64,000 bases of DNA. It comes from a virus. Positions 12,344 to 64,000 of this stretch are shown one piece after another. Both the position numbers and the translations under genes were made by a program. Within the stretch, counting starts at the first letter, position 1, and every line of letters begins with the position of its first letter. A model generated the notes under the pieces. The model was not told the DNA's origin, did not search any database, and saw nothing but the letters and a program-made list of their open reading frames with translations. The stretch covers positions 1-64,000 of IMG/VR virus record IMGVR_UViG_3300047319_000798, one strand, 5' to 3'.

Positions 12344-12923
12344 AAAGGGCAAAGAGATCAAGAGTTCCATGACGGAACAGTACGGTCCCGAGAAGGGCGA
12401 GGAGGTCTTTTACGCCTCCAAGAACGCAGGAAGGATCAGTGGCGTGGACACGAAAGCCGATCAGCAAGCCCAACCCCAGGCTGCTCAGCCGAAGCCCCAG
12501 CCGCAAGCGGCCCAGCCTCAAGCACAGGGACAGGGGCAGCAGCAAGCCCAGCAGCCGCCGGTTAAGGAGACCAAGACCACGGTTAAGGAACCGGCGGGCG
12601 GCGCAGAGGGTGAGCAGAAGCAAGACCCCAAGGCCACGCTCAAGGCGGCTGAGGATGAACTGGACGCACTGGAGCGCGAGCAGGAGCAATCGGAAGAGGG
12701 CCTGGGTCGCCAGAACGCGATTGAGGACCAGAAGAAGATCATCCGCACGCTGCGCAATGAGATGCGTGAGACTGAGCACAAGGAGCGTATGGGCGTTGCT
12801 GATGCCGTAGAGAAGTTGGAGTATCTTCAAGACAGCACACTGCTCATGAAGCACATCGGCGACGCCTGTGACAAGCTGGCTGACCGGATGGATGCATTTC
12901 AGGCGAAATCAGCGCGGGCCTAA
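12330..12923 (+). CDS. Virion protein with YGxxKGxxVFYAS domain and coiled coil
   Basis: The first 40 residues (LTEKGKEIKSSMTEQYGPEK, then VFYASKNAGRISGV) form a short domain seen at the N-terminus of many phage structural and internal proteins. A Gln/Ala/Pro-rich low-complexity linker (about 45-80) follows, then a charged coiled coil to the end (197 aa). It overlaps the holin and touches the Nudix-topoisomerase gene. It is probably an internal or scaffold-related virion component. Confidence 0.6.
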   Translation: MPLTEKGKEIKSSMTEQYGPEKGEEVFYASKNAGRISGVDTKADQQAQPQAAQPKPQPQAAQPQAQGQGQQQAQQPPVKETKTTVKEPAGGAEGEQKQDPKATLKAAEDELDALEREQEQSEEGLGRQNAIEDQKKIIRTLRNEMRETEHKERMGVADAVEKLEYLQDSTLLMKHIGDACDKLADRMDAFQAKSARA

Positions 12924-14134
12924 TGCTCAACGCTGCTGGGATCATCTTTCGCTCACCCCAGGGCCGCGTTCTATTGATGCGGCGCAAGGATGGGAAGTGG
13001 GACTACCCGGGCGGCGGCGCGGAGGGCGATGAGACGGCGGTTCAAACCGCCTTGCGTGAGGCGGTTGAGGAGACCAAATACTATCCCGGGCACGCGGGCC
13101 GGTTTCACGCGCGCCGGGTGCGCAATGGGGTCGATTACACGACCTTCCTTCGCGATTGTGAGGAAGAGTTCGTACCCAAGCTCAGCAATGAGCATACGGA
13201 TTACATTTGGATTGATCCTAAGCGGGTACTGACCCAAAGCATTAACGCCCGGGCCGACGATGCTGCGTGGGAGGAAAGCGATCACCCGCGCGATGAGGAC
13301 GGGAAGTTTGCGGGTGGTGGCGGTCATGTCTCCGCGACCCGGGGCGAGGGCGGCAAGCTAGAGGGCGCACCTGAGCATATCGCCAGCCTAAAGGTGCCGC
13401 CCGCATGGACCGATGTAACCTATGCTCAAGACCCGGGGGCTGCGCTCCTAGTCACCGGACGTGATTCTAAGGGGCGGCGGGTGTTCATCTATTCGGAGAT
13501 GCACGCCCAGAAGCAAGCGGCGCTCAAGTTCGCACGGATCAATGAGCTGGATCAACAGTTCAAAACGGTGGCGAAGCAGAACGCGGCGCTAGCCAAGACC
13601 GCCGGAAAGCGGGACGTGGCCGACTGTCTGGGGCTGATCATGGCGATGGGCATTCGGCCCGGCAGTGATCGCGATACCAAGGCGGCTAAGAAGGCTTACG
13701 GCGCGACAACGCTAGAGGGCCAACACGTAGTCACCGAGGGTGATACAACCTATCTGCGCTACACAGGTAAAAAGGGCGTGGACCTAAACCTGCCAGTACC
13801 CAAAGCGTGGGTTAAGGCACTACAGGAGCGGGCGGATAAGGCGGGGCCAAGCGGGCGATTGTTTGGTGGGGTGACCGATGCGATGTTGCGTGAGCACGTC
13901 CATAGTCTCGATGGTGGCGGGTTCACAACCAAAGATTTCCGCACCCATCTGGGTACGTCAACAGCCACCGAGCTGGTGGAGAGGATGGACGTACCCAAGA
14001 CCCAGGCGGAATATCGCAAGGCGGTTATGGAAGTGGCTAAGAAGGTGTCTTCTGTGCTAGGCAATACACCGGTGATTGCCCTCCAGAGCTACATCAATCC
14101 TAGTGTATTCGGGGCCTGGAAAGCTGCCGCATGA
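12923..14134 (+). CDS. Nudix hydrolase - topoisomerase IB fusion
   Basis: One 403-aa frame joins two enzymes. Residues 1-105 are a Nudix domain with box GGAEGDE...REAVEE (Glu37, Arg45, Glu46, Glu49, Glu50); the usual Gly after EE is Thr51. Residues 115-135 are a HPRDEDGKFAGG linker. Residues 155-403 match poxvirus-type topoisomerase IB: VPPAWTDV, VTGRDSKGRR, IRPGS (Arg245), TGKKG (Lys283/284), KDFRTHLGT (Arg340), VLGNTP, then catalytic Tyr390 in SYINP. It would nick and religate DNA through a 3'-phosphotyrosine and relax supercoils. Encoded among head genes, it may be packaged. Such a fusion is unfamiliar to me. Confidence 0.85.
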   Translation: MLNAAGIIFRSPQGRVLLMRRKDGKWDYPGGGAEGDETAVQTALREAVEETKYYPGHAGRFHARRVRNGVDYTTFLRDCEEEFVPKLSNEHTDYIWIDPKRVLTQSINARADDAAWEESDHPRDEDGKFAGGGGHVSATRGEGGKLEGAPEHIASLKVPPAWTDVTYAQDPGAALLVTGRDSKGRRVFIYSEMHAQKQAALKFARINELDQQFKTVAKQNAALAKTAGKRDVADCLGLIMAMGIRPGSDRDTKAAKKAYGATTLEGQHVVTEGDTTYLRYTGKKGVDLNLPVPKAWVKALQERADKAGPSGRLFGGVTDAMLREHVHSLDGGGFTTKDFRTHLGTSTATELVERMDVPKTQAEYRKAVMEVAKKVSSVLGNTPVIALQSYINPSVFGAWKAAA

Positions 14135-46245: not shown

Positions 46246-46488
46246 CTACAGCCGCCCGCTCAGGACATCCTTGATCATCTTGTACAGCCCCACCCCGACA
46301 AAAATTGTGCCGGGCCATGACAAGATGGCATACCCGGCATCCAAGTGGAGAACATGGCGGGAGAACACCGCCATGATCAGAGCGGCTAGGCCGATTACGA
46401 TGTAGTCAATCGTGCCCCACGACCGGAACGGCCCCGATAGAGCGCGCCAAGCGCCATCAAGCCAAAGCCGGAAAGGAGCATGACCCAC
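46246..46488 (-). CDS. Small membrane protein (two transmembrane segments)
   Basis: The start is GTG 46488 with GGAGG seven bases upstream, a strong choice even though it overlaps the sorting-tail gene by 94 bases. The 80-aa product has an amphipathic N-terminus and two hydrophobic helices (IDYIVIGLAALIMAVF, about 27-42, and ILSWPGTIFVGVGLYKMI, about 55-72). It is last in the operon of secreted proteins and could serve as a holin-like or exclusion protein. No family recognised. Confidence 0.65.
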   Translation of the reverse strand: MGHAPFRLWLDGAWRALSGPFRSWGTIDYIVIGLAALIMAVFSRHVLHLDAGYAILSWPGTIFVGVGLYKMIKDVLSGRL

Positions 46489-47219
46489 GTTGAAGCCTCC
46501 GGCACTGGCGGTCCCGATAGTGTGTTGATAATGCCGGCGTTAGTCCACGAGGTATCAAACGCCGTGATATTGAGGTTGCCCTGGTGGTCGAACGACAGGT
46601 CCACCGCAACCGGGGCGATGATGGTTCCCAGTGCGAACGAGCCATTCACAGTGAGGAAGTCGGCGTCACTGTTGAAGCCACCTCCCGGCACGTTGAACGA
46701 CGCCTCCTCAATCTGGAACGCATTGGGTAAGGCAAATCCTTCCTTCGTGTATTCAGCGAGGAAGTTGGTGAAGCTCAAGCTGCCGCCGCCGATACCCAGC
46801 TGCTTGCCAAAGTCCTGACCGGCGATGAGCGTGCCGAGCAGCGCGCCGTCGAATAGACCATTGTTCAGATCAAGCACACGCGGCGCAATGTCCACCGATG
46901 TCGGACCGATGGTGAACGCCCCAAGCGGACCAACGCCAGTCGCTCCGCTGATGGTTGGTAAGGCCGTGCCCAGCGCCGAGATGAAGTAAACCCGGATAGG
47001 GTCATTGATGCTCTTGTTGCCAACCTCTGTGATGGTGAAGGTGTTGGCGTCGTTGAGCAGCACTGGATCGGAGCCGGTCGCGCCGGGTGACGTGACGTGG
47101 AGTGACGTTGGATCGCAGAACGTACCACCGCCCGGAAGCGGGGTGCAGTCTGTAGCCTGGGCGTAAGCCGGTGCGGCGAAGGCGAAAGCCATCACCGTAG
47201 AGAGTAAGAACTTTTTCAT
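46395..47219 (-). CDS. Secreted protein with degenerate PEPxxWA-CTERM sorting tail
   Basis: A 274-aa protein. Residues 1-20 are a Sec signal peptide (MKKFLLSTVMAFAFAAPAYA). The mature part is a beta-rich Gly/Asn/Asp domain with two early cysteines. Residues 239-274 are the sorting tail: VPEASTWVMLLSGFGLMALG then a basic end. The motif has PEA and WV where PEP and WA are usual. In bacteria exosortase cleaves such tails and anchors or exports proteins with exopolysaccharide. A phage could use it to remodel the infected cell surface (inference). Confidence 0.75.
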   Translation of the reverse strand: MKKFLLSTVMAFAFAAPAYAQATDCTPLPGGGTFCDPTSLHVTSPGATGSDPVLLNDANTFTITEVGNKSINDPIRVYFISALGTALPTISGATGVGPLGAFTIGPTSVDIAPRVLDLNNGLFDGALLGTLIAGQDFGKQLGIGGGSLSFTNFLAEYTKEGFALPNAFQIEEASFNVPGGGFNSDADFLTVNGSFALGTIIAPVAVDLSFDHQGNLNITAFDTSWTNAGIINTLSGPPVPEASTWVMLLSGFGLMALGALYRGRSGRGARLTTS

Positions 47220-47324: not shown

Positions 47325-48041
47325 TTACGCACCCAGGACCGACAGGCGGTCCTTACGCGAACGCTTCCAGCCCATCACGCCCATGAGCGCGAAGCCGCTG
47401 AGCAACATCGCCCAGGTCTTGGGCTCCGGCACCGCCGACGCCTCCATCGAGACGCCCTGGACAAAGATGCTGGCACCCGGCTGAAGGGTAAGGGTGAGGC
47501 TCTCCGCCAGCCCGTAGGGGCTGTTGAGAAGGTCGCTGCCGAACCCGTTGAACGCGAACGACTGCGGCCCGGTCAGCCCACCAGAGTTGAAATCTCCGAT
47601 GTCGAGGCCGGTGATGGCGAAGCCGGTCCCGTTAAGCGAATTGCTCGCGTCGGCGAAGAACGAGCCGGACAAGTCAGACCCGAACAGCGTGGCGCCCACA
47701 GCCGCCGTAAGGTTGAACCCAAACGAAGGCCCAAGGAAGCCGTTAGCCCCGGCGATGATGCGCAGCGTCTGCACCGTGCCAGTGGTGTTGTCGATGTTGA
47801 TGTTGCCCTCAGTCAAACCATTGGGGCTGGTCCCCCGGTTGACGAAGGACAGGGACACCGTCACGCCGTCGAAGTTCTGCGACGCGAGAGCCGATGTGCC
47901 GGTTCCACTGGCGGTTTCAAACCCGCCGGGGTCCGCCGCGTTCCACATGATGAGGGCCGTGTTGGCCGCCATCGCGGGGCTGGCCACCGCCAACGCCGCA
48001 AGTCCTACGGCACCAAGCGCCGCCGCCTTAAAAATCCCCAT
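47325..48041 (-). CDS. Secreted protein with canonical PEPxxWA-CTERM sorting tail
   Basis: ATG 48041 has GGAG eight bases upstream; a longer frame lacks this. The 238-aa product has a signal peptide ending near Ala25 (VASPAMA), a beta-rich domain (SFVNRGTSPNGLTEGNINID), and residues 204-238 VPEPKTWAMLLSGFALMGVM followed by KRSRKDR. This is a full PEPxxWA-type exosortase signal: PEP box, transmembrane helix, basic end. Exosortase itself is not encoded in the window, so host machinery would be needed. It is followed by the degenerate relative. Confidence 0.85.
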   Translation of the reverse strand: MGIFKAAALGAVGLAALAVASPAMAANTALIMWNAADPGGFETASGTGTSALASQNFDGVTVSLSFVNRGTSPNGLTEGNINIDNTTGTVQTLRIIAGANGFLGPSFGFNLTAAVGATLFGSDLSGSFFADASNSLNGTGFAITGLDIGDFNSGGLTGPQSFAFNGFGSDLLNSPYGLAESLTLTLQPGASIFVQGVSMEASAVPEPKTWAMLLSGFALMGVMGWKRSRKDRLSVLGA

Positions 48042-48151
48042 GTGTTTATCTCCATATGCCGGAAAAGGGTCCGGTCCCTGTAACAACTTCGCATGTTAAC
48101 GGAATTTAATCTTCGCGTCTAGGTAAATTATGAGGATACTGTAGAGGTTTT
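48042..48151. other. AT-rich spacer upstream of the sorting-tail genes
   Basis: These 110 bases are notably AT-rich for this genome and probably hold the leftward promoter of the 48041-46246 operon, but I found no copy of the phage promoter family in them. CTGTAAC occurs at 48079. No open frame with a start and ribosome binding site is visible. Confidence 0.4.
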
Positions 48152-51908: not shown

Positions 51909-54098
51909 TTATTTTTCACCCAGCTTCTCCTTGGCCTCTCCCCAGGAAGCCCCAAATTCAACATCGACCTTCATCGGGATCACCAGTGGGATGGCATCGA
52001 TCATCAGCTTGGCGCACTTGCGCGCTGATTCCGGGTTGTCGAAGGAGAAGCCCAGTTCATCGTGCATCTGGATCATGGGCAGGTAGCCAGCGCGCCCGAT
52101 ATCCCGCATAGCCCGCTTCATCTGGCGGGCGGCGCTACCCTGGATCAGGTGGTTGAATGCCTTGTAGGTAAACGAATGGCGCACTGGCTTCTGCCAGGGG
52201 TGATGGGGATCATCAATCCGCGCCTGGGCCTCCTCCCGGCTAGCTGCTGGCTTGAACGCATCCTCAAGATTGCCATACAGGCGCACGCCCTCTGCCTGGA
52301 ATGCGCGCTTGTATTCATCCTTGTCCTTCTTGTACCAGAATGAGCCTTCAAACCCCGGGTAGTGGGACCGCGCGCCGTCGATCAGCCGAATAGAGCCGCG
52401 CTCAGACGCCATCCAGATGATGATATTGGCTATCCCGGCGACAAAGGGCAGCCGCTCATCATAGGTGTTCATAGTGGCCTTGGCTTCCTCGTAATCCATC
52501 CCGGTCATTGCGGAGAACTGGCCGATACCCGCGCCGAATGCCTTGGCGAAGTTCACGTCCTTAGCGCGGCGGCGCTGGAGGCGGGTAATCTCCGCCACCC
52601 AACTGTGAAAGTCCACGTCCGGGTTGCGCCGGTATTCATCCCCGGTGGTGATGGCGGTCTTAACCAGCTCACGCAGTGAGACGTGCCGCCGCCCGGGCGG
52701 GATATGGGCGATGATTTCGGTGCGCAGCTTATCCAGCGCCGCGTCGGACAGAGTAGCCATGGTCTCCGCCACGTGGACGATGAGGCGAAATTCCTGCTGG
52801 CTATAATCCACCGCATACCATCGCGTACCCTCTTCCGGCAGGAAGATCGAACGGATACGCGGGGCCAGCTCATCGTCGCGGGACGGCATCTGCTGGAGCG
52901 GCGGGTGATCATAAGAGAACCGGTGGGACCGTGTACCGCCATCCTCATTGCGGAACTGGTTGATGGAGGCGTGGACCCGGCCATTGTATTCGGTGTTGAA
53001 GATATATTCGCCCACGAATTTGTCGCCGGCAGCGTCCAGTGTTCTAATGCGCTGGATCAGGCGCGGCAGCTCATGGCGATGGTTCTTCATCCATGGGCCT
53101 TCGAACTGGGGCTGGGCCTGACCGCGCGTCTCCCCTCCCGCCGTCCAGCCGTATTTGATCCCTACGCCGTCAAAGACCTTGGCCAGTGCCCAGGGTGAGC
53201 GGATGACCTTAATGTCCAGATGCATACCGGCGGAGCGGGCGGCAGCGTTGATTAATTCATCCCGCTGCGTGTTTAGATCGTGCTGGAGCCGCTCGGCAGC
53301 ATCCAGATCGACCCGAATGCCCCGGCGACGCATCCGCTGGGTCATCGGCATTAGCTCCATCTCCGTGGTGTAGGCGTCCCAGGAGCCTTCCGCCTCAACG
53401 AGGGGTCTAAGTATGTCGTAGAGTTCGAGTGTGGCTCCTGCGTCACGCTCCGCATACGGACCCACGTACTTCCCGGGCAGCCGCCAGAGGTTCTCCCCGG
53501 TTGACCCCTTCAAGCCCAGAACCTTGCAGGCTTCCACCAGCATTGATTCGTCCTTGCCCGGAATGCCCCGCCATTTACACAGGTCATCGAGCTTGTAGCT
53601 GGGAAGGCTTTCGATCAGGAACGCGGCCAGCGCGCCGGTGTCGTTAATCCGTGCCGGTGGGGGTATCTCCCATTGGGCGAATATCCAGCCCAGATCGTAG
53701 CCGATGTTGTGGCCGACAAACTCTGTGTGGTCCTGGCGGAATAGGGCGCGCAACCACGTGCCTACGGTTTCATAGGGCCAGTTCGCGGTCTCCCTCAGAT
53801 GCCACAATGGTATGTAGATCGAACCGCCGTGCCAGGCCACCGACACCCCTAGCACATAGTTGGTGGTGGAGGTTCCCATGAACCAGCCGGGGCCGCGCTT
53901 CTTGGTCTTGTCCAACAGACCATCGTCGCGCGTCTCGGTGTCTATCGCCACCACCTTAGCCTGGCTAAGGTCCGGCAGGTCGCTCGGCTCTAGCCAGTTT
54001 GATTCAGGCATAAATAGGTCTGACTGCTCGAAGCTGCGCTTGAGCTTCTTGTACTTCATCCTGATTCGTTCGGATTCAGGCGGAAGGCGGTAGAACAT
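51909..54098 (-). CDS. DNA polymerase, family A
   Basis: A 729-aa replicative polymerase if started at ATG 54098 (GAGGACG just upstream; GTG/ATG choices up to 54119 are possible). The 3'-5' exonuclease shows AIDTET (Asp53, Glu55), GHNIGYDLGW and YAERDAG. Polymerase motifs: A, AVDYSQQEFRLI; B, RRRAKDVNFAKAFGAG; C, IQMHDELGFSF. In motif B the position of the E. coli Pol I stacking Tyr766 is Phe. No 5'-nuclease domain. It is last in the long leftward operon with the nucleotide genes. Confidence 0.93.
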   Translation of the reverse strand: MFYRLPPESERIRMKYKKLKRSFEQSDLFMPESNWLEPSDLPDLSQAKVVAIDTETRDDGLLDKTKKRGPGWFMGTSTTNYVLGVSVAWHGGSIYIPLWHLRETANWPYETVGTWLRALFRQDHTEFVGHNIGYDLGWIFAQWEIPPPARINDTGALAAFLIESLPSYKLDDLCKWRGIPGKDESMLVEACKVLGLKGSTGENLWRLPGKYVGPYAERDAGATLELYDILRPLVEAEGSWDAYTTEMELMPMTQRMRRRGIRVDLDAAERLQHDLNTQRDELINAAARSAGMHLDIKVIRSPWALAKVFDGVGIKYGWTAGGETRGQAQPQFEGPWMKNHRHELPRLIQRIRTLDAAGDKFVGEYIFNTEYNGRVHASINQFRNEDGGTRSHRFSYDHPPLQQMPSRDDELAPRIRSIFLPEEGTRWYAVDYSQQEFRLIVHVAETMATLSDAALDKLRTEIIAHIPPGRRHVSLRELVKTAITTGDEYRRNPDVDFHSWVAEITRLQRRRAKDVNFAKAFGAGIGQFSAMTGMDYEEAKATMNTYDERLPFVAGIANIIIWMASERGSIRLIDGARSHYPGFEGSFWYKKDKDEYKRAFQAEGVRLYGNLEDAFKPAASREEAQARIDDPHHPWQKPVRHSFTYKAFNHLIQGSAARQMKRAMRDIGRAGYLPMIQMHDELGFSFDNPESARKCAKLMIDAIPLVIPMKVDVEFGASWGEAKEKLGEK

Positions 54099-54387
54099 CG
54101 TCCTCGTCCTCGTCACCATCCTCTTTCATCACTGCATCTTCGCCTTTTATCGCGGTCATATACCCCGTTGTCCAGCCGGCAGCATATATTATGGCGGTTT
54201 CCTGATCACCAAAATTAGCCAAACTGTAGTAAAGGCCCCTTTTGGTAGCCAAAAGCACTTCCCAATTGTAAGGCCCGGTTACGTGCGGACCGTTGTCCTG
54301 GTAAACAAATACGCGGGGCCGTGGCGCGGATAGCTCCGGATCATGTTTACATACAGCCGCCGTGTCTGCCACCATCCATAAACTCAT
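54076..54387 (-). CDS. Hypothetical protein with acidic tail
   Basis: A 103-aa protein with a beta-rich core (RPRVFVYQDNGPHVTGPYNW, GLYYSLANFGDQETAIIYAA) and a very acidic end (EDGDEDEDD). It overlaps the polymerase start by 23 bases and the DUF3310-like gene by four. Possibly a polymerase partner by position; no family recognised. Confidence 0.6.
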   Translation of the reverse strand: MSLWMVADTAAVCKHDPELSAPRPRVFVYQDNGPHVTGPYNWEVLLATKRGLYYSLANFGDQETAIIYAAGWTTGYMTAIKGEDAVMKEDGDEDEDDVLPPSA

Positions 54388-54782
54388 TGTTCCATCCTCG
54401 CGTGGTGGCCCCCATCAGCTGGCGTGCCCGGGCCAACCTCGTCCTCTTCGATGATAGGTTTCATCTGCGGGCGCGGCGGAACCACTGTCACGTCATGTCC
54501 TCCGGTTATCGTCGCCCCGGTCACGTGGTGCGGGGCCTTGAGCTTAGCCTTTTCGTCAGCGATTAAAAACTCCAGGTAATGCAGGGCTTTCTCTAGGTCA
54601 ACTAGACCTTTGGCGCGGCCATCTACACTACCATGCACGCGCCAGCGCGACACGTACTTGATGATGTTCCCATCAACATAAGGGATATTGTTGACGTGGC
54701 AGTATTCCATGGGCTGAATAACGAAGCCCTTGTAATGCTGGCCACCAACCTGCCTCTTCAGCTGCTCGTCGCGGTCGCTCAA
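54384..54782 (-). CDS. DUF3310-like protein
   Basis: TTG 54782 is chosen because GGAGG lies six bases upstream and TTGA overlaps the stop of the HD gene; a GTG at 54794 sits on that site itself. The 132-aa protein contains the DUF3310 pattern: QVGGQHYKGFVIQPMEYCHV, GNIIKYVSRW, DLEKALHYLEFL. This small family is very common in phage replication regions and is often annotated as nucleotide-kinase-like, without proof. The C-terminal third is Pro/His/Glu-rich. Confidence 0.75.
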   Translation of the reverse strand: MSDRDEQLKRQVGGQHYKGFVIQPMEYCHVNNIPYVDGNIIKYVSRWRVHGSVDGRAKGLVDLEKALHYLEFLIADEKAKLKAPHHVTGATITGGHDVTVVPPRPQMKPIIEEDEVGPGTPADGGHHARMEQ

Positions 54783-55378
54783 AATTCCCTCCACATGGCC
54801 AAGAGTGTCTTGGCGGTTTCATCTGGAAATTGCTGCTGCATAAAGAAATTGAGGCGGCGCAGCACATAGGCGCGGATTGCCCGCGCTTCCTCTGGGGTAA
54901 ACGCGCCCAGCATAGCGTAAGCCGCGTCAAGCGTTCTCACCGCCACAGTCCAGCCGAACCGCGAACCTAGCGTGGTTTCCACCATACCCTCTTCCGCCAT
55001 CTCGATCAGCTCAGCTATCTTGGCGTGCTTGGCCATCTTGCATTCCAGCGGGATATTGAACCCCCAGAACGCGCTCTGGCTGGTCTTGGCCTTGTCCTCA
55101 ACCTCCTGGAACCGACGGCGCAGCTCCGGGTTGTTGCGCTTCACCGGGTAAGGCGGATCACCCGTGATGATCTCGCCGCTATCGTGGAACATAATGTATA
55201 GAAACGTCTCCTGGTCTGGTGGCCCGAATAGACAAGTGTAGACGCGTAGCAACTGCCAGGTATGCTCAGCCACCGTCTGCCGCCGGATAGTGGGCCACGT
55301 GTGGTAACGTTCCACTGTACCTGCGAGGCGCAGGTCCATTACAATCATACGCGCCGCGCCGTTCTGATGATCGGTCAT
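54779..55378 (-). CDS. HD-domain 5'-deoxynucleotidase (YfbR-like)
   Basis: The 199-aa enzyme shows the YfbR-type HD pattern: RRQTVAEHTW with His39, FHDSGEIITGDPPYPVK with His65, Asp66, Glu69 and Asp74, and a late Asp in RTLDAAYAML. It dephosphorylates deoxynucleoside monophosphates. Beside a thymidylate synthase homologue, it may remove host dTMP or feed the pool used for a modified thymine (inference). It overlaps both neighbours by four bases. Confidence 0.8.
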   Translation of the reverse strand: MTDHQNGAARMIVMDLRLAGTVERYHTWPTIRRQTVAEHTWQLLRVYTCLFGPPDQETFLYIMFHDSGEIITGDPPYPVKRNNPELRRRFQEVEDKAKTSQSAFWGFNIPLECKMAKHAKIAELIEMAEEGMVETTLGSRFGWTVAVRTLDAAYAMLGAFTPEEARAIRAYVLRRLNFFMQQQFPDETAKTLLAMWREF

Positions 55379-56439
55379 ACGGCGGTCTTAATTGTATTAG
55401 AGTGCGCGGTCAAGTCTTTTTTCGCGTGACGATGTAACCATTCTATACCGGCTTGTTTCCAATCTGGGGCGTTTACAAAGGTCATAAGGTGGTGGGCACT
55501 GGGCTGATTCTTGTGTTTGTAGAAATAATAGGCGCTGGCCATGTAGTATACATCTTCAAGGAATGGGTTGTTGACGCTGCTGAATGGTATATCATTCCCC
55601 GGGCCAATGGTATGAACCTTGTCAAGGGCATTCCATAACCGTTTGAGGTCTTGATCAAACCTGCCGGCATCACCCATAAGCGGGGTCACCGGCCCATAAT
55701 CCTCTAGCCCCGTGGCTAGGGCGAGGTAAACCTGGTCAACGGTACACTTACTGGACAGTTTAGCGCCTTTGTAAAGGCGTTCCCATACGTCCACGTACAT
55801 ATGGAAATCATTGGTGAACTGCGTGTACTGGCCGACACCTACGCCCACCTTGCTGGCGACGTACTCCTGAAGGAAGGAGAGATGGACGGCGTTGGCCCCG
55901 TATGCGCCCCACAGAATGTCGTTCGACCGGTTGCTCACGGTCATGTCCAGACAGCCGTAACGGATGCGGAACATCACCTGTAGGTTACAGGGCTTGGCCA
56001 GGGTGGTGGTTAGGTCTTCTGGGTCCCACATAGTGAGCACGGCGCGGCGGGTGGTGGGGTCCGCCTTGATTAGCTTGATTACCTCATCGAGCTGGTCGAA
56101 GCCCCAGTGGTGGCGCCAGCGATAGCCGTAGCCATCGGTGATCACCCCTTTATAGCCGAACCGGGTGCCAAAGTCCTTGATGTAGAAGTCCAGAGGCGCA
56201 GCGTCCTCCCGCCCCGCCAGCATCCACATAGCCTCGACCAGGTGGAAGAATGGATTGGCGTTCCGCACAGGACTCAGCAACACCCTCTGGGCGGGTGAGC
56301 GATAAATGGTGGCCACCGGCCCCTCGGGATAGGCGATAACCGGGCCGTTTCGGCTATCCTGCACTTCTCCGTGGCGGAGGAGCAGCATAATGCCACGGGG
56401 CAAAGCCTCGCGAACATTCTCCACAGTGAATCTAAACAT
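55375..56439 (-). CDS. Thymidylate synthase homologue, probable dUMP hydroxymethylase
   Basis: ATG 56439 is chosen with GGAAGG directly upstream; starts at 56475 and 56484 are possible. The 354-aa protein keeps the synthase fold: TRRAVLTMWDP with the phosphate-binding Arg pair 131/132, PCNLQVMF with catalytic Cys151 (Asn follows where His is usual), SNRSNDILWGAYGANAVH (Arg171, Ser172, Asp174, Asn183) and HMYVD. Viral relatives make dTMP, 5-hydroxymethyl-dUMP or 5-hydroxymethyl-dCMP. The neighbouring DNA kinases and transferase favour hydroxymethyl-dUMP; sequence alone does not settle it. Confidence 0.8.
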   Translation of the reverse strand: MFRFTVENVREALPRGIMLLLRHGEVQDSRNGPVIAYPEGPVATIYRSPAQRVLLSPVRNANPFFHLVEAMWMLAGREDAAPLDFYIKDFGTRFGYKGVITDGYGYRWRHHWGFDQLDEVIKLIKADPTTRRAVLTMWDPEDLTTTLAKPCNLQVMFRIRYGCLDMTVSNRSNDILWGAYGANAVHLSFLQEYVASKVGVGVGQYTQFTNDFHMYVDVWERLYKGAKLSSKCTVDQVYLALATGLEDYGPVTPLMGDAGRFDQDLKRLWNALDKVHTIGPGNDIPFSSVNNPFLEDVYYMASAYYFYKHKNQPSAHHLMTFVNAPDWKQAGIEWLHRHAKKDLTAHSNTIKTAV

Positions 56440-56464
56440 GCCTTCCCTCGCCAAATCTCCCAGC

Positions 56465-57034
56465 TCAATCGCCATACGACACATCCACCAGTTCGAGCAC
56501 CCGCTGAAAGGCTGATTCTCTATCTAGCCGTTCGACCGGCACCCCGATAGCCTTCAATTTCTTGGTATTGGAGCTGATCGAAACAACCTTGTCAGCCACC
56601 AGTCCCGGCTTGAGCGGCTTGTAGTTGCGCATGGATACTACGCGCCGCTCGTTGATATCGGCCTCACACTGCTCGATTGGCGTGGTTAGCTCGATTATAT
56701 GTAAACCAGACGTGGCCCGGTGGAGGCGCGCTAGCCGGTCGATACCATACATGGAGATGATCACGCCCTCGAAGATCACGTGGTTCTGATGGCGGTCAAG
56801 CTCGGCTATCGTGGACATGACCCAGTCCGCGATACCCTTGGCGCTGAAATTGTCGCAACCGCCAGTCGGCGTCTCGTACGGACCCACCACCGCTATGTTG
56901 CTCTTGGTGCTCTGGTAGCCGATGGGCTTCTTCTTGTCGCCCAGGATACCAAGCCACGGCCCGCGCGCCTCCATGACCCGGCGTACCAGGGTGGACTTGC
57001 CCGCGCCGTTAGTTCCCCGGATATTGATGAGCAT
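56465..57034 (-). CDS. P-loop kinase 1, 5-hmdU DNA kinase-like
   Basis: ATG 57034 has GGAG seven bases upstream. The 189-aa protein starts with a P-loop, INIRGTNGAGKST (Gly7-Thr15), then GYQST and a GGCDNFSAKG segment, and VIFEGVIISMYGID as the acidic strand. The same order (GTNGxGKST, GGxLVVVGKY / GPYETPTGGCD, FEG) occurs in the kinase at 60883, so they are paralogues. Small kinases of this type phosphorylate 5-hydroxymethyl-uracil in DNA in hypermodifying phages. A dNMP kinase is an alternative. Confidence 0.7.
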   Translation of the reverse strand: MLINIRGTNGAGKSTLVRRVMEARGPWLGILGDKKKPIGYQSTKSNIAVVGPYETPTGGCDNFSAKGIADWVMSTIAELDRHQNHVIFEGVIISMYGIDRLARLHRATSGLHIIELTTPIEQCEADINERRVVSMRNYKPLKPGLVADKVVSISSNTKKLKAIGVPVERLDRESAFQRVLELVDVSYGD

Positions 57035-57230
57035 ATATCCACTCCTGGACCGCGTGCGCGGCGGCAAGATACTCTGCGCTGGGCGTCTTGGTGATCTCTT
57101 GCCCGGGCTGATATGTTGCCCAGATGCGTTTGCGTAGGTGGGCGGGCAAGCGGAACCAGTGTTCGCGGCACCCCCACAGCTTGGGTGGCACCGCCTTGGG
57201 GCAACCGGGCCAGTGACAATGGTGGGTCAT
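57009..57230 (-). CDS. Small Cys/His phage protein (CHWPGC type)
   Basis: A 73-aa protein with HCHWPGCPKAVPPKLWGCRE then HWFRLPAHLRKRIW: a C...C...C...H zinc knuckle that recurs in small proteins of many proteobacterial phages. The C-terminal half is helical. It overlaps the kinase gene by 26 bases. Role unknown, nucleic-acid contact likely. Confidence 0.65.
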   Translation of the reverse strand: MTHHCHWPGCPKAVPPKLWGCREHWFRLPAHLRKRIWATYQPGQEITKTPSAEYLAAAHAVQEWIYAHQYPGN

Positions 57231-57547
57231 CGGTGCCCCTTAATGTCCATGGCGTGCTTAACGATCAGCGAGGCAAACGCTAGCGCCTCTTCCGGCGGCA
57301 AGGCGAACCAGGCAGTGGGCTTGAAGAAATCCACACGCACCGTTTTGCGATACGTGGTGATGGCGATGTTGAGACCGCCTTCATCCGTGGCATCTAGCTT
57401 ACCCTTGGGAAAGTCGCCAGTGGGGCCGAGTTTGTGCTCACTCATCATTGCCATCCGCAGAAAGTGGTTTGTTGCGCCGATGTTGTATTGGGTGGCTAGC
57501 CGCTCTAGGTGCGGTAGCATGCTGGTGATAAATTCCTCGTCAGTCAC
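57227..57547 (-). CDS. Hypothetical protein
   Basis: A 106-aa mixed alpha-beta protein: an N-terminal helical part (EEFITSMLPHLERLATQYNI), a beta hairpin (LNIAITTYRKTVRVDFFKP) and a closing helix (PEEALAFASLIVKHAM). ATGA-type overlaps with both neighbours. No family recognised. Confidence 0.6.
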   Translation of the reverse strand: MTDEEFITSMLPHLERLATQYNIGATNHFLRMAMMSEHKLGPTGDFPKGKLDATDEGGLNIAITTYRKTVRVDFFKPTAWFALPPEEALAFASLIVKHAMDIKGHR

Positions 57548-57894
57548 ACGCTTATCCTCAACGTCCCTGCTGGGCCGTTATTGTCTGATTCGGCGTTGAT
57601 CAGATAACGCATGGGGGCGACCGGCCAAGGTGCCCGATCAGTAACTGGCCAGGATATCGGCCCTATGTCTGGCAAGCAGAACCGACCACCGGTGCCGCTG
57701 CCATAGGTGTAGCCTATCGCGGCAAACAGTTCCGGGTAATCCTTGACCCGAACCAGTGCGCCGTTGCAAATCAAGTGTTGGGGGCGGATTATCGGCGGCC
57801 ACGGAGCGCGCGGCATTAGCATGAGCGAGGGCAGCCGCACGATAGCGGGCGCAGCGATTAGACCGGCGAAGAAAGAACGTCTGTCGAGGGTCAT
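57544..57894 (-). CDS. Tail-collar-domain protein with Tat-like signal
   Basis: ATG 57894 (second Met) gives a 116-aa protein starting TLDRRSFFAGLIAAPAIVRL, a twin-Arg motif plus hydrophobic stretch like a Tat signal. The rest is a short tail-collar domain: PQHLICNGALVRVKDYPELF, AIGYTYGSG, GGRFCLPDIG. Collar domains usually sit in fibres; here one lies in a replication operon with an export-type signal. It may be exported rather than built into the tail. Start and export are inferred. Confidence 0.6.
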   Translation of the reverse strand: MTLDRRSFFAGLIAAPAIVRLPSLMLMPRAPWPPIIRPQHLICNGALVRVKDYPELFAAIGYTYGSGTGGRFCLPDIGPISWPVTDRAPWPVAPMRYLINAESDNNGPAGTLRISV

Positions 57895-58442
57895 AGGAAC
57901 CACGTGATCATCGAATAGCGTATGCCGGTGTTGACCGGTAGGATTTGATGGGGATACATGAACTGGGGCGGGAACATGAGCGCGCAGCCGCCGCGCAGCC
58001 GGAACGGTTCGTCATCCCAGAACTTGAATTCACCACCAGTGTATTCGTTGTTGAGAGCTATCGACATTGACAGCACCCGGGGCACCATATCGTCGCGGTG
58101 CTGGCCGATGAACTGGCCCGGTTCGTAGCGCAGAATATCGAAGCCGGAATCAGAGCGTGAGGTCAGCGGGAACTTGCCCCTGTAGATGTTGAGAGCACGC
58201 AGGGAGGCGTCGAGCAGGATATCGTCGGCCCGCTTGGCTATCCCGAGCTTAGCGGGCGTCAGAGGGTAGTTGCCCATTACTGCCGCTGAGAGAGGGAACG
58301 TGGTGCAGGTGCGCTCGGGGTAATCCGGCGACGCATTGGGCACGCGCCACTGCTCGCCCTCTGTGACGCTTAAAATTTCCTTACACGTCAGTGGGTCCAG
58401 AAGGGGCTCAGTGACCATGATGAATTCTTTGAGGTCCGCCAT
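57891..58442 (-). CDS. 2OG-Fe(II) oxygenase
   Basis: ATG 58442 has GGAG seven bases upstream; a Cys-rich longer frame does not. The 183-aa enzyme fits the prolyl-4-hydroxylase-like oxygenase fold: GQHRDD with iron ligands His115 and Asp117, EYTGGEFKFWDD, His165 in YPHQILPV, and Arg175 in GIRYSMITWF for 2-oxoglutarate. It oxidises an unknown target using oxygen and 2-oxoglutarate. In a DNA-modification operon the target could be a base or its side chain, but protein hydroxylation is equally possible. Confidence 0.85.
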   Translation of the reverse strand: MADLKEFIMVTEPLLDPLTCKEILSVTEGEQWRVPNASPDYPERTCTTFPLSAAVMGNYPLTPAKLGIAKRADDILLDASLRALNIYRGKFPLTSRSDSGFDILRYEPGQFIGQHRDDMVPRVLSMSIALNNEYTGGEFKFWDDEPFRLRGGCALMFPPQFMYPHQILPVNTGIRYSMITWFL

Positions 58443-58519
58443 CGCTGGTCTCCTATAGCAACACCCACAGCACTTTCTATCCGATTTGCAACACGGGAAG
58501 CGACAGGTGGCGAACGGAT

Positions 58520-58771
58520 TCACCGCTTGTTCCAATACGCTGCCAGGTCAGCAAGCTGGACTGGGGTGGGCCGCGCGATGGTGGTCTTGTCGCCCGCCCG
58601 CTCACTCTTGCGAATTTCTTCGCCAGCGCATTGCCAACACCAGATAGCGTCAGCGTGAGGGGAGCTAACCGCCACCCACACGTCCGCGCCGCATAGGTCG
58701 CAGAACCCGGGTTGCGACTGGACTGGCGGGCTGAGCACATCCTCGCAACGTAGACAGACTAGGGGGTTCAT
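58520..58771 (-). CDS. Small zinc-finger protein
   Basis: An 83-aa protein with three CxxC pairs: CLRC near residue 6, CDLC near residue 24 and CWQC near residue 45, enough for one or two zinc ions, then a helical tail ending YWNKR. The 77 bases between it and the oxygenase gene contain no gene. No family recognised. Confidence 0.6.
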   Translation of the reverse strand: MNPLVCLRCEDVLSPPVQSQPGFCDLCGADVWVAVSSPHADAIWCWQCAGEEIRKSERAGDKTTIARPTPVQLADLAAYWNKR

Positions 58772-58773
58772 GG

Positions 58774-59433
58774 TTATGCCGCCGGTAGAAGCAACAGCGC
58801 TTCGTTGTGCATATGCGCCAGAGCGCGAAGGCCCTCAATCCCGTCCCTCTTGGCCTCAGCCACCAGTATCGGAAGGCCGGAATCAATGGACTGCTCGATT
58901 TCACCCCGCGTGGCTACCCGGCCCTCAGCGTACCAGTCCACCCGGATAGGCTTACCCAGCCGGAATAACACGCCCTGGCCCGCTTGGAAAGGCTTGGCCT
59001 TGGCGCACTGATAGAGCGCCACCGCGCCGGGGTTGCGCGGGATCATGATGCCCGCCACCACCGGATCATCGGGCATGTTCTTGGCGTTGCGCTTCTCACG
59101 CGGGTTGGTGAGGAACGGACACGCCTTGGCGGCAAACTCGGCACACTCCCGATGGCACGGCGGTTCGGACGTGACCCGGTTGATCACGCACATCGGCCCA
59201 ATCACGTAGATGTTAGACTGGCCCTCCATAGACCCACCGCAAATCCAGCACTTACGGCGGTTATGCGCCATCCACAGCTTACCCGGGCCGATGATGCGAA
59301 AGTCAGGCTCGCCTGTACCGGCGGGCACGGCTCTGCCGTCCTGCATCCAACAGATGAACCACGGCACCGGATAGCCCCGGCCATCACGGGGCAGCCGGGC
59401 AATGCGCTCGGGCATTGGGGGCAGGGCGATCAT
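58774..59433 (-). CDS. Unknown Cys-rich protein
   Basis: A 219-aa protein that starts ALPPMPERIARLPRDGRGYP followed by VPWFICWM, then CWICGG (near residue 62), MCVIN, and CHRECAEF (near residue 93): a set of Cys/His residues for zinc or an iron-sulphur site. The C-terminal half is alpha-beta (IRVDWYAEG, IEQSIDSGLPILVAEAKRDG). It sits between HNH and zinc-finger genes inside the modification operon. I recall similar uncharacterised phage proteins but no function. Confidence 0.6.
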   Translation of the reverse strand: MIALPPMPERIARLPRDGRGYPVPWFICWMQDGRAVPAGTGEPDFRIIGPGKLWMAHNRRKCWICGGSMEGQSNIYVIGPMCVINRVTSEPPCHRECAEFAAKACPFLTNPREKRNAKNMPDDPVVAGIMIPRNPGAVALYQCAKAKPFQAGQGVLFRLGKPIRVDWYAEGRVATRGEIEQSIDSGLPILVAEAKRDGIEGLRALAHMHNEALLLLPAA

Positions 59434-60134
59434 ATGTTGCGTCCTCTTTGACCAAGTGCGCGTTGATCCGCTAGGAACTCATTGAGTGGCTGTGTGCCTT
59501 TTTTGGAATTACAAGGGTGGCATAGGGCAACGCAATTGCTCTGTATGGTTCTGCCCCCCTCAGCCCAAGGAACCATGTGATCACCAACTGGTAACAAGAA
59601 CGCATCGAATACCCCATTACACCCAAGACACTTACCATGTTGGCCAACCGCTGACTGCGCAACTTCAGTATCATAAAACATGCGGCGGGTATCGCGCTCA
59701 ACTGTGCTTTTTACCACCACGAAGAACGATTCAACCTTAGAGTATGGAATTGGCTCGCGGTCCTGGATGTAGGTTCTAACCATCCTCCATACGCGGTCAC
59801 GCTCCGGGCTTCTATCCCCGTTCTTCTTGAACTCATCTTTGTTAGATGTGCTTAACAGCTCCAGCATATCTTTATCACGTCCGATGGGATGGGTTAATCC
59901 ACCCTGTCGACCTTTCCCGCCGCCATCCGCCTCCAAGCCTTTGATATATTGGTCAAGGTACGGATCAATCCAAGGCATTAGGGAATGGGCAAGGTCAATG
60001 GCGGTTGCCCCCGTCAATTCAACAGGGCTATCCATCCACTTTGCTGTTCTCATCACATACATGAATAACTTGACTTCTGGGGGTCGTGGCCGGTTACGGC
60101 TTGGTGTGTATCGAGTTGCTCCGCCTCCGCCCAT
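59430..60134 (-). CDS. HNH endonuclease
   Basis: ATG 60134 overlaps the previous stop (TGATG). The 234-aa protein ends in an HNH domain: CLGCNGVF, then GDHMVPWAEGGRTIQSN and LCHPCNSKKG, with two CxxC zinc pairs and the catalytic DH. The N-terminal two thirds are helical (LAHSLMPWIDPYLDQYIKGL). A free-standing homing enzyme or an enzyme acting on unmodified host DNA is possible; a defined role in the operon cannot be read. Confidence 0.8.
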   Translation of the reverse strand: MGGGGATRYTPSRNRPRPPEVKLFMYVMRTAKWMDSPVELTGATAIDLAHSLMPWIDPYLDQYIKGLEADGGGKGRQGGLTHPIGRDKDMLELLSTSNKDEFKKNGDRSPERDRVWRMVRTYIQDREPIPYSKVESFFVVVKSTVERDTRRMFYDTEVAQSAVGQHGKCLGCNGVFDAFLLPVGDHMVPWAEGGRTIQSNCVALCHPCNSKKGTQPLNEFLADQRALGQRGRNI

Positions 60135-60913
60135 CACGCTGCCTCCCTGAATGCCGGAGCGTGGCGCAGGAGTGCCTCGGCGGTATCGCCCCACCCCGAT
60201 AGGTGATGGCGGATTTCATTGGTGTCCTTGCCCACCGGATAGTGCCCGTTCATGTGACTCTTCCACTTACAGAGTACCGTCTCCGCCTCCTGGACCCCGC
60301 ACTGGCGTCGCCCCGCCGCTGGCTCCAGATACTGACCCACGCGCCGGATTAGATCGCCATAGGCCCCGGTGCCCCGGTCGGGGTCCGGTCCCGCTAGCAT
60401 GGTTAGCGCCGCCGCCGGTTCCTTGTACAGCAGGGGAATGCTGGGGGCAAACTCTATCGGCTGGCCCGCGCAAACCTCAAGCATATCCGCCACCTTGAAG
60501 CCTATCCAGGGGCCAAACAGCGGCCACCGGCTGGTCACGTGCTTGATGATCTCGTCGGCGGTCTCAAACGGGTACAATGAGTTGACCCAAGTCTCCGCTG
60601 GGCGGGTGGCGAACATCTCCATCGCATAAACGCACTTGTCGCCCCGGAAATGACGCCGCTCTGTGCCCCGGGGCCAGCGGGTTCCAAGTGGCGATAAACT
60701 ATCGTTTCTTGCCGCTTTTAACATCTGATCCCAATACCGCCCATCGGTGAACTCGGACATGTACGAGGCCGCACCCATATGGTAAAAACACCAGTAGGCG
60801 AATAGCCACCGCCTGAACTGGTCATGGGTCAGGTTTACGCGACAGAGCGCAACATACACCGGGTCAAGATCACCAGTAGTGATCAGGGCGTCGGCGAAAT
60901 CTTCGATAAGCAT
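60134..60913 (-). CDS. Amino-acid:DNA transferase-like (aGPT-PPlase superfamily) protein
   Basis: A 259-aa helical protein: LDPVYVALCRVNLTHDQFRR and WLFAYWCFYHMGAASYMSEF at the start, TRWPRGTERRHFRG (about 78-91), and FGPWIGFKVADMLEVCAGQP (about 132-151). This pattern, with the DNA-glycosylase-like KVADMLE helix, resembles the alpha-glutamyl/putrescinyl-thymine pyrophosphorylase superfamily, whose members conjugate amino acids to phosphorylated 5-hmdU in DNA, or the related helical part of 5-hmdU DNA kinases. It overlaps kinase 2 by 31 bases, supporting joint action. Which of the two classes it belongs to is undecided. Confidence 0.65.
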   Translation of the reverse strand: MLIEDFADALITTGDLDPVYVALCRVNLTHDQFRRWLFAYWCFYHMGAASYMSEFTDGRYWDQMLKAARNDSLSPLGTRWPRGTERRHFRGDKCVYAMEMFATRPAETWVNSLYPFETADEIIKHVTSRWPLFGPWIGFKVADMLEVCAGQPIEFAPSIPLLYKEPAAALTMLAGPDPDRGTGAYGDLIRRVGQYLEPAAGRRQCGVQEAETVLCKWKSHMNGHYPVGKDTNEIRHHLSGWGDTAEALLRHAPAFREAA

Positions 60914-61446
60914 TCCAGTATAACCTCTGCGGCGTTGTCCCGATTGACAACGATCTTGCGCACCCCTAGTGCCTGTAACTTACCTACGTAATTACGGGCA
61001 CGTACATTGGTGCCGTAAATGTTGGATATCGCTAGCTGGTCGCGGGTCTTGCCCGACCGGGCCAGTATCGCGCTGATACAAGTCTCTACTGGTGTATCGA
61101 GCAAAACTAATGTAACGTTCTGATAGCCTAGCGCGCGGAAAAAGTCAATTCCCCGCGTATGACTCATCATACGGATACCTTCAAACAACACGTTGTACCC
61201 GGCCTGGTGCGCGCAGCGCACTGTCTCCAGGTTGTAATCCCTATCCTTGATCGCGTCGCAACCTCTGGCGGTGATCGCGTGATACTTGCCCACGACCACG
61301 AGTGGACCGCCAAGGGTCATCTCGTAGCCGCGCACCTTCTTCGTGGCGTCATCCAGTATCGCCTCCACGTCCGGAGCGGCGGCCATCACCTTGTCGATGA
61401 TGGTCGATTTACCGGACCCGTTGGTGCCGCACACCTGTATGATCAC
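60883..61446 (-). CDS. P-loop kinase 2, 5-hmdU DNA kinase-like
   Basis: The 187-aa protein starts with IIQVCGTNGSGKST (P-loop Gly7-Thr15), then GGPLVVVGKYHAITARGCDA and NVLFEGIRMMSHTRGIDFF, then Arg-rich lid-like segments. It is a paralogue of the kinase at 56465. Its overlaps with the transferase-like gene and with the radical SAM gene point to a role in thymine hypermodification: phosphorylation of 5-hydroxymethyl-uracil in DNA. Small-nucleotide kinase activity is the alternative. Confidence 0.75.
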   Translation of the reverse strand: MIIQVCGTNGSGKSTIIDKVMAAAPDVEAILDDATKKVRGYEMTLGGPLVVVGKYHAITARGCDAIKDRDYNLETVRCAHQAGYNVLFEGIRMMSHTRGIDFFRALGYQNVTLVLLDTPVETCISAILARSGKTRDQLAISNIYGTNVRARNYVGKLQALGVRKIVVNRDNAAEVILECLSKISPTP

Positions 61447-62780
61447 GCTGCCACCTCCTGACGCATATCCTTGAGATCGAAGGCCTTGCCGCTAGCTAAC
61501 AGGTCTGAGCCACAGGGAGCCTTGCCTGTGGTCTCCGCGCACCGGAGGCAGCCGGAGGGTGGACAGACTTCTAGCGGGGCGAACCCGCCGCCCCTCTTAA
61601 CGTATGTCGGCACACGATGGCCGTGGCATTGGTCTGCGGTTAGGAACTCCGGCCCCATTGAAGTCCACGCCCCGGTCTTGATGGTATATTCGTAGCACAG
61701 GGAGTAGGTCATACCGTGCCGCGTGGCAGCGGCCTGATATCGCGTGTGGCCTTCGCGCCGATATGTCTCGGTGACAGTCCGCTGGCTCCCGGCCTGGTTC
61801 TCAGTGAACAGGTCGATAAAGCCTTGAGCGCGGTTCGCGCCAAAAGCTTTGCTGATCCTTTCCTCCATAGAGGCGCGCCAAGGGTGATTGGCCTCGACAA
61901 ACTTGACGATGACGTGGTTTGCTCCGTTGGCGGCTAACAGCCCAATTAGCTCCTCGATATCCTCATGGGTGGTGATCCCGGGCACAACCGGGTTACACTG
62001 GATGGAAACATAGATGTCGCGCATGCGCGCCTCGCGTATCTCGCTAAAGTGCTGCGCTAGCGTGATCGCCCCGGGCGATAACTTTGCCCAGTCATCCTCA
62101 TGCGGCGTGTTGATCGATTTCTGCATGTAGGAATGGGGGTTCTGGCTCATAAGATCGTAGGCCCAGCCGGGATAGCTCAGGCGGGAAAGGAAGAAGATGG
62201 GGAGGCCCGCGTTAACGAAAGCCTCCGCGCCGCGCTGGGTATTATGGTAATAATCCTCCAGCGACAGGAAGGGGTCTGTAAAGCTGGAGAAATACCCGGC
62301 CTGGGCGTGCTTCATGGTGCCCAGTTGCTTAGCCACCATATCGCCATATCCAATCGGCACAGTGGCCAGTCCGGACCCACGATAGCCGCGATGGCCGGAA
62401 TTGATGTAACAGAACCGACACCCAACAGCGCAATAGCCGCCATAAGGCTGAGTAAGGACAGCGTTCGTTTCACAGGGGCGCTCCCGCTTGCCCTTGATCG
62501 CGCCGTCTCCCTTATTGGAGTACCAGCCGCGAAGGTCTTGGCCCTTGTCGAGCCGAATGTGGGGGATTGGATCCAGATAGATGGTTTGCTCCACCATCTT
62601 ATCGGAGCCGCGCATCATCGATATCTTGCCGTCGCGCGCCCGAATAGAGCGGCCTGTGACCGGGTCATCAATGTGGTTGATGGGACCCAGGATGTCACGC
62701 ATATCGGGGTCCACGCGCATGAAGTAGCGATAAGCCTCTTCCGCCGCTTCGTCCTGAAACATGCCATCCTGGGTTTCCAT
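61443..62780 (-). CDS. Radical SAM enzyme, probable base-modification isomerase
   Basis: The 445-aa protein has the radical SAM cluster motif CAVGCRFC (Cys117, Cys121, Cys124) after a YGGY stretch, a SAM-binding barrel (GYFSSFTDPFLSLEDYYHNT, LPIFFLSRLSYPGW, VSIQCNPVVPG), and a C-terminal CPPSGCLRCAE...PCGSD group that could hold a second iron-sulphur cluster or zinc. The architecture resembles spore-photoproduct-lyase-like and related enzymes. In phage M6-type pathways a radical SAM isomerase rearranges the glycyl group on the modified thymine; the gene order here fits that role (inference). Confidence 0.8.
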   Translation of the reverse strand: METQDGMFQDEAAEEAYRYFMRVDPDMRDILGPINHIDDPVTGRSIRARDGKISMMRGSDKMVEQTIYLDPIPHIRLDKGQDLRGWYSNKGDGAIKGKRERPCETNAVLTQPYGGYCAVGCRFCYINSGHRGYRGSGLATVPIGYGDMVAKQLGTMKHAQAGYFSSFTDPFLSLEDYYHNTQRGAEAFVNAGLPIFFLSRLSYPGWAYDLMSQNPHSYMQKSINTPHEDDWAKLSPGAITLAQHFSEIREARMRDIYVSIQCNPVVPGITTHEDIEELIGLLAANGANHVIVKFVEANHPWRASMEERISKAFGANRAQGFIDLFTENQAGSQRTVTETYRREGHTRYQAAATRHGMTYSLCYEYTIKTGAWTSMGPEFLTADQCHGHRVPTYVKRGGGFAPLEVCPPSGCLRCAETTGKAPCGSDLLASGKAFDLKDMRQEVAA

Positions 62781-63988: not shown

Positions 63989-64000
63989 GGTATCAGAGTA

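Follow-up and report, generated by a model that had tools for sequence, protein, structure and literature searches.

Gene content of the locus

The 77,970-bp IMG/VR virus record IMGVR_UViG_3300047319_000798, from a virus known from metagenomes only, carries on its minus strand, at 54.8–62.8 kb, an operon that an earlier note on bases 1–64000 (hereafter the window, which shares the numbering of the record) had read as a probable thymidine-hypermodification gene cluster. We analysed the window together with the rest of the record, examined as bases 63000–77970. The six leftward open reading frames (ORFs) named in that note are real: they encode a Thymidylat_synt homologue, a YfbR-like HD protein, two kinases of the HMUDK_HMUD1 family (the one at 56465 slightly below the cut-off), an ADDT protein and a radical S-adenosylmethionine (SAM) enzyme of phrog_9252. 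The assignment as a thymidine-hypermodification cluster is likewise upheld by curated profiles, by gene-by-gene homology to the Pseudomonas phages M6 and YuA, and by conserved active-site motifs.

In phage M6, an amine-bearing base takes the place of some of the thymidine and blocks restriction enzymes. Searches of the record with M6 proteins returned one-to-one homologues of gp51 (ADDT), gp52, gp53, gp54, gp55, gp58, gp59, gp61 and gp62. As given in the SN1 paper (PMC9476957), the M6 cassette comprises a hydroxymethylase, Nmad5, aGPT-Pplase1, a kinase, a radical SAM enzyme, a pyridoxal phosphate (PLP) enzyme and aGPT-Pplase2, and all of these M6/SN1 genes except Nmad5 are present in the record. 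For Nmad5 (M6 gp56) the record gave no match at E 1e-3, and the gene was likewise not found in Rhizobium phage RHph_I72 and several other relatives, which suggests an accessory gene and not a defining one. Very probably, then, this phage encodes a complete M6/YuA-type thymidine-hypermodification pathway, split over two strands, with 5-(2-aminoethyl)-2′-deoxyuridine (5-NedU), the base carried by M6 DNA (PMC6449724), as the predicted product. The presence of the enzymes, their homology and their active-site motifs are documented below; the reactions and the final base are carried over from M6.

Early steps of the pathway

The gene at 55375..56484 (−) encodes a homologue of M6 gp58 (40% identity) and SPO1 gp29 (35%), assigned as a deoxyuridine monophosphate (dUMP) hydroxymethylase of the thymidylate synthase superfamily (Thymidylat_synt 83 bits, cut-off 24.3; phrog_5131 312.6 bits); alignments of its homologues place the start of the gene likely near 56439. 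Since the thymidylate synthase tree has a star-like base and by itself does not position the hydroxymethylase relative to ThyA, we relied on a comparison of motifs. The catalytic cysteine lies in PCN, as in the M6 enzyme and in SPO1 gp29, which is annotated as dUMP hydroxymethylase, whereas E. coli ThyA has PCH; the uracil-type asparagine (GAN) is retained, again as in SPO1 gp29 and the M6 enzyme. Judged by family and motif, the protein would convert dUMP to 5-hydroxymethyl-dUMP.

Next to it, at 54779..55378 (−), lies the gene of an HD-domain 5′-deoxynucleotidase homologous to M6 gp59 (E 1e-8; PF12917 YfbR-like 42.7 bits, cut-off 25.9). This enzyme probably removes thymidine monophosphate (dTMP) of the host and would thereby lower its level, and 5-hydroxymethyl-2′-deoxyuridine (5-hmdU) would be incorporated into DNA in place of thymidine.

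Two kinases and a helical subunit

Two paralogues of the 5-hmdU DNA kinase are encoded in the operon. The catalytic subunit that best matches M6 gp54, kin2 (56465..57067, −), scores 25.2 bits against PF18748, 1.8 under the cut-off of 27; in tblastn with M6 gp54 it was found with 32% identity at E 2e-15, and the other paralogue, kin1 (60883..61446, −), at E 0.002. Against the same profile, HMUDK_HMUD1, kin1 reaches 43.9 bits (cut-off 27). Homologue alignments suggest that kin2 starts at the ATG at 57034, not at the TTG at 57067. Although only 30% identical to each other, both kinases have an intact Walker A motif (GTNGSGKST in kin1, GTNGAGKST in kin2) and conserved FEG and LxTP stretches. The structure model of kin1 (predicted local distance difference test score, pLDDT, 90) shows a fold resembling nucleoside monophosphate (NMP) kinases and polynucleotide kinase (PNK), while a search of PDB sequences with kin1 gave chance matches only. 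We considered whether kin1 is a broken copy and rejected this in view of its intact motifs, confident fold and orthologue-like relatives.

The helical subunit of the 5-hmdU DNA kinase, HMUDK_hel (aGPT-Pplase1), is encoded beyond the window and on the opposite strand, at 72501–73358 (+) of the record (PF18723 127.5 bits, cut-off 25; 30% identity to M6 gp55). Its search against PDB sequences gave no match, and a profile search of the record for a second helical subunit found none. With this subunit, kin2, and perhaps kin1 too, would phosphorylate the hydroxymethyl group in DNA.

In the tree, kin1 forms a clade with one kinase paralogue each of the uncultivated IMG/VR phages L015 and L022 (support 94/93), so that the duplication probably predates the split of these three phages. 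The 5-hmdU DNA kinase described so far adds phosphate mainly in TG/TC contexts, and about 20% of the 5-hmdU in SP8 DNA is converted (PMC7653180; PMC6449724). Given this sequence specificity, a second kinase might widen the choice of sequence context; alternatively, it may act on nucleotides or be regulatory. It is possible, if rather doubtful, that the paralogues differ in base context (e.g. TG/TC versus TA/TT) with one common helical partner, and that conversion of thymidine, in this phage as in its relatives with several kinases, goes far beyond the 30–50% reported for M6-like phages.

Late steps and the predicted product

The amino acid:DNA transferase ADDT (aGPT-Pplase2) is encoded at 60134..60913 (−). 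As the earlier note had described, the genes of the radical SAM enzyme, kin1 and ADDT overlap in order, the first pair by 4 bp and the second by 31 bp, and the profile check it had proposed for the last two places both over their cut-offs, ADDT in PF18724 with 47.1 bits (cut-off 26.2). The protein shares 39–43% identity with its homologues in M6, YuA, Pam3 and RHph_I72 and matches PDB 8z2m, ‘Glycinyltransferase’, at E 1.1e-54. It is probably a glycinyltransferase, which would swap the phosphate for glycine to yield N-alpha-glycinyl-thymidine.

The host genera listed for the phage matches of ADDT include neither Salmonella nor Escherichia, the hosts of ViI-type phages; the matches are to M6/YuA/PaMx11-type phages. 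Salmonella phage ViI, whose DNA carries 5-(2-aminoethoxy)methyl-2′-deoxyuridine, does have a related 5-hmdU kinase and a hydroxymethylase of the thymidylate synthase superfamily, but both ViI homologues sit on long branches. Its type of pathway, with serine and a PLP enzyme and no radical SAM enzyme, is not what we found here, where a radical SAM enzyme is present and ADDT matches the other lineage. The parallel drawn earlier to phages such as M6 and ViI thus holds for the glycine and radical SAM branch of M6/YuA and not for ViI, the transferase, radical SAM enzyme and PLP enzyme all resembling those of M6/YuA.

The radical SAM enzyme (61443..62780, −), homologous to M6 gp53 and YuA gp12, scores 561 bits against phrog_9252 and is 54% identical to M6 gp53 over 448 residues. 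Its CX3CX2C motif is intact and kept in all relatives, and cysteines in a C-terminal CHG and CxPxGCLxC...CG are conserved; this C-terminal set may hold an auxiliary cluster. A PDB sequence search gave no match, and the AlphaFold model, of medium confidence, is nearest to spore photoproduct lyase (4fhc, E 1.9e-7), a radical SAM enzyme that works on thymine in DNA. The protein is a putative isomerase of the N-glycinyl-thymine base in DNA and would turn N-alpha-glycinyl-thymidine into a C–C-linked amino acid.

Likenesses of this kind could be taken to describe an ordinary nucleotide-metabolism operon, with a true thymidylate synthase, deoxynucleoside monophosphate kinases and a DNA-repair photolyase-like radical SAM enzyme, and without hypermodification. 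At the level of class the folds are indeed NMP-kinase-like and spore-photoproduct-lyase-like, and homologues of the genes have been automatically annotated as thymidylate synthase, threonine dehydratase, DNA repair photolyase and terminase small subunit. We nevertheless regard such an operon as extremely unlikely: ADDT and HMUDK_hel belong to families named for hypermodification and score above curated cut-offs, the synthase homologue has PCN and not the PCH of ThyA, and M6, with the same gene set, has 5-NedU in its DNA (PMC6449724).

The last enzyme of the M6/YuA-type pathway had escaped the earlier note, which saw no PLP decarboxylase and considered that the base may keep the amino-acid carboxylate. 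The window indeed contains no such gene, but the record does: a homologue of M6 gp52 (44% identity) is encoded at 74778–75593 (+), with 216 bits against phrog_7093 and 43.7 bits against PALP (cut-off 35). Its SK catalytic lysine is conserved in 12 of 12 homologues. The missing decarboxylase was thus an effect of the window edge, the gene lying past base 64000 of the same record. A pathway ending without decarboxylation in a carboxylate-bearing base, which drew its support from the lack of a PLP gene inside the 64-kb window, is now very improbable, since the sequence contradicts it unless the M6-family enzyme is inactive. The PLP enzyme would instead strip the carboxylate to give 5-NedU, by which the DNA would be guarded from restriction.

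In phages, the genes of the radical SAM and PLP enzymes go together: the counts of phage records with their homologues agree by genus, at 53 for Pseudomonas, 8 for Bordetella, 2 for Rhizobium and 1 each for Pseudanabaena, Stenotrophomonas and Sphaerotilus, with three more records of the radical SAM enzyme in other genera. The flavin adenine dinucleotide (FAD) lyase of the branch leading to 5-aminomethyl-2′-deoxyuridine (5-NmdU) occurs in 18 phage records, 15 of them Pseudomonas phages (PaMx11/Ab18/Epa types) and the others Simon, RHph_TM26 and Sonora. With PaMx11 gp47 and the TM26 homologue as queries, no FAD lyase was matched in the record at E 1e-3. Because the record holds the radical SAM and PLP enzymes and no FAD lyase was found, 5-NedU is the expected end product.

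Inserted genes

Between ADDT and kin2, at 57009..60194 (−), lie genes without a counterpart in the M6 pathway. These are an HNH endonuclease gene (59430–60194, −) that overlaps the 3′ end of the ADDT gene, a gene of unknown function (58774), a zinc-ribbon-like gene (58520), a 2-oxoglutarate (2OG)-Fe(II) oxygenase gene (57891–58535, −), an adjoining tail-collar gene (57544–57903, −) and two small ORFs; the Pfam assignments among them are HNH, 2OG-FeII_Oxy_3 and Collar. None of the inserted ORFs had a match in the compared stretches of M6, YuA, Pam3, RHph_I72, RHph_TM26 and SPO1, nor in the relatives L012–L023.

These extra enzymes, chiefly the oxygenase, or a changed specificity of the radical SAM or PLP enzyme, might lead the same pathway to a final base other than 5-NedU. 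The HxD...H...R metal site of the oxygenase is intact, and the radical SAM and PLP enzymes are far from those of M6 (44–54% identity). Both of the latter retain the motifs of their families, however, and the oxygenase, whose nearest phage relatives are oxygenases of cyanophages, looks like cargo, given these relatives, its tail-collar neighbour and its absence from the modification clusters of the relatives. We therefore put a role of the oxygenase in base modification low, and another final base appears unlikely.

Comparison with related clusters

The synteny with M6 and YuA (Mesyanzhinovviridae) continues downstream of the operon. A DUF3310 protein, 41% identical to M6 gp61 and in a syntenic position, is encoded at 54384..54794 (−; PF11753 21.1 bits, slightly below the cut-off), and a family A DNA polymerase follows as in M6 and YuA (51909..54119, −; PF00476 127 bits; E 1e-75 with M6 gp62). 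Homologues are therefore shared for ADDT, the PLP and radical SAM enzymes, kinase, helical subunit, hydroxymethylase, HD nucleotidase, DUF3310 protein and PolA. Unlike in M6 and YuA, the genes here occupy both strands, more than 10 kb separates kinase and helical subunit, and two kinase paralogues are present; a baseplate J protein is encoded as well. The terminase, portal, head and tail proteins of M6 that we tested gave no match in the record at E 0.01.

Rhizobium phage RHph_I72 and Pseudanabaena phage Pam3 share the order radical SAM enzyme, ADDT, kinase, hydroxymethylase, nucleotidase, DUF3310 protein and DNA polymerase. The PLP gene stands apart from the radical SAM gene in both, and a baseplate J protein is annotated in RHph_I72. 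They differ in that their helical subunit adjoins the kinase, all genes are on one strand and profile searches find one kinase each. The clusters of PaMx11, RHph_TM26 and Simon resemble the present one in the hydroxymethylase, the kinase with helical subunit and a related ADDT, but have an FAD-dependent enzyme, and the compared stretches gave no matches for the radical SAM and PLP enzymes.

The closest polymerases that we found (40–42%) are those of L015 and L022. Like the present phage, these two and the further IMG/VR phages L016 and L021 have two or three kinase paralogues per cluster: three genes of the 5-hmdU kinase family lie in one cluster of L015 (L015:6418-12393), and two each in L016 and L021. 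In L021 the two kinases are accompanied by another HMUDK_hel-like gene (L021:16248-16586), truncated where the contig stops. L015, unlike the phage studied here, has the helical subunit, PLP enzyme, kinase, radical SAM enzyme, ADDT, two kinases, hydroxymethylase, HD protein and polymerase all in one direction, and in all four phages the helical subunit and PLP genes are, where visible, on the same strand as the rest. An inversion would explain why these two genes run opposite to the other pathway genes here. Relative to M6, this phage differs in its two divergent kinase paralogues and in the split of the cluster over two strands, the second kinase copy being the unusual feature.

Genome context

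Structural genes run rightward in the first 46 kb: PHROGs identify terminase, portal, tape-measure and tail fibre genes, and Pfam a baseplate J protein, which makes a contractile tail likely. From 46 to 63 kb the genes form a leftward block, and those recognised over the final 15 kb of the record are mostly rightward. The operon recurs nearly unchanged in two independent contigs, which come from different metagenomes, an IMG/VR contig matching 56759–64416 with 4 mismatches and spanning the upstream edge of the operon, the other matching 55541–62306 with 8 mismatches, so that the operon is not an assembly chimera. The linkage of 64–78 kb to the remainder is that of a single assembled record; a second contig covering this part was searched for and not found.

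A near-identity DNA search of window bases 50–64 kb against 50,697 phage records gave 0 matches. Bacterial and archaeal genome contigs had no match to the radical SAM enzyme in a single-sequence search, and a search with the family alignment found four contigs of metagenome-assembled genomes, two of them with YuA-like genes at ~99% identity; therefore no host was inferred. The metagenome-assembled contigs L046 and L048, both labelled Anaerolinea thermophila, carry YuA/M6-like phage genes at ~99% identity and are probably mis-binned or contaminating phage DNA.

Two neighbouring ORFs of the leftward block, 46395–47219 (−) and 47325–48086 (−), carry PEP-CTERM sorting signals (PF07589, cut-off 20.7; 24.8 and 25.9 bits), which are host exosortase signals; a literature search found no paper devoted to such signals in phages. 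Inside the structural block, the ORF at 12923–14134 (+) combines an N-terminal NUDIX domain (58 bits) with a topoisomerase IB catalytic core (70 bits).

Discussion

Several points weigh against a complete pathway to 5-NedU. The amino acid transferred by ADDT is assigned from the nearest solved homologue, at ~40% identity, and identity to the M6 proteins is no more than ~26–33% for kin1, kin2 and the helical subunit. The model of the radical SAM enzyme has a pLDDT of 66, falling below 50 in the cluster-binding loop. An M6-type ribonucleotide reductase and deoxycytidine monophosphate (dCMP) deaminase were, like Nmad5, not found in the record. Since the pathway genes are distributed over both strands and separated by several inserted genes, their co-expression is an assumption, and 5-NedU in this phage is a prediction from its genes.

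In summary, this phage carries the M6/SN1 cassette complete but for Nmad5. The carboxylate-bearing base was a tempting wrong conclusion from the window edge, now corrected. A complete M6-type pathway in a phage without matches to the M6 structural proteins tested shows that the pathway moves as a module, divisible between strands. If the two kinases do divide sequence contexts between them, the system would allow one to examine directly what determines the proportion of hypermodified bases and their positions, and would yield kinases of new specificity for shielding DNA against restriction enzymes.

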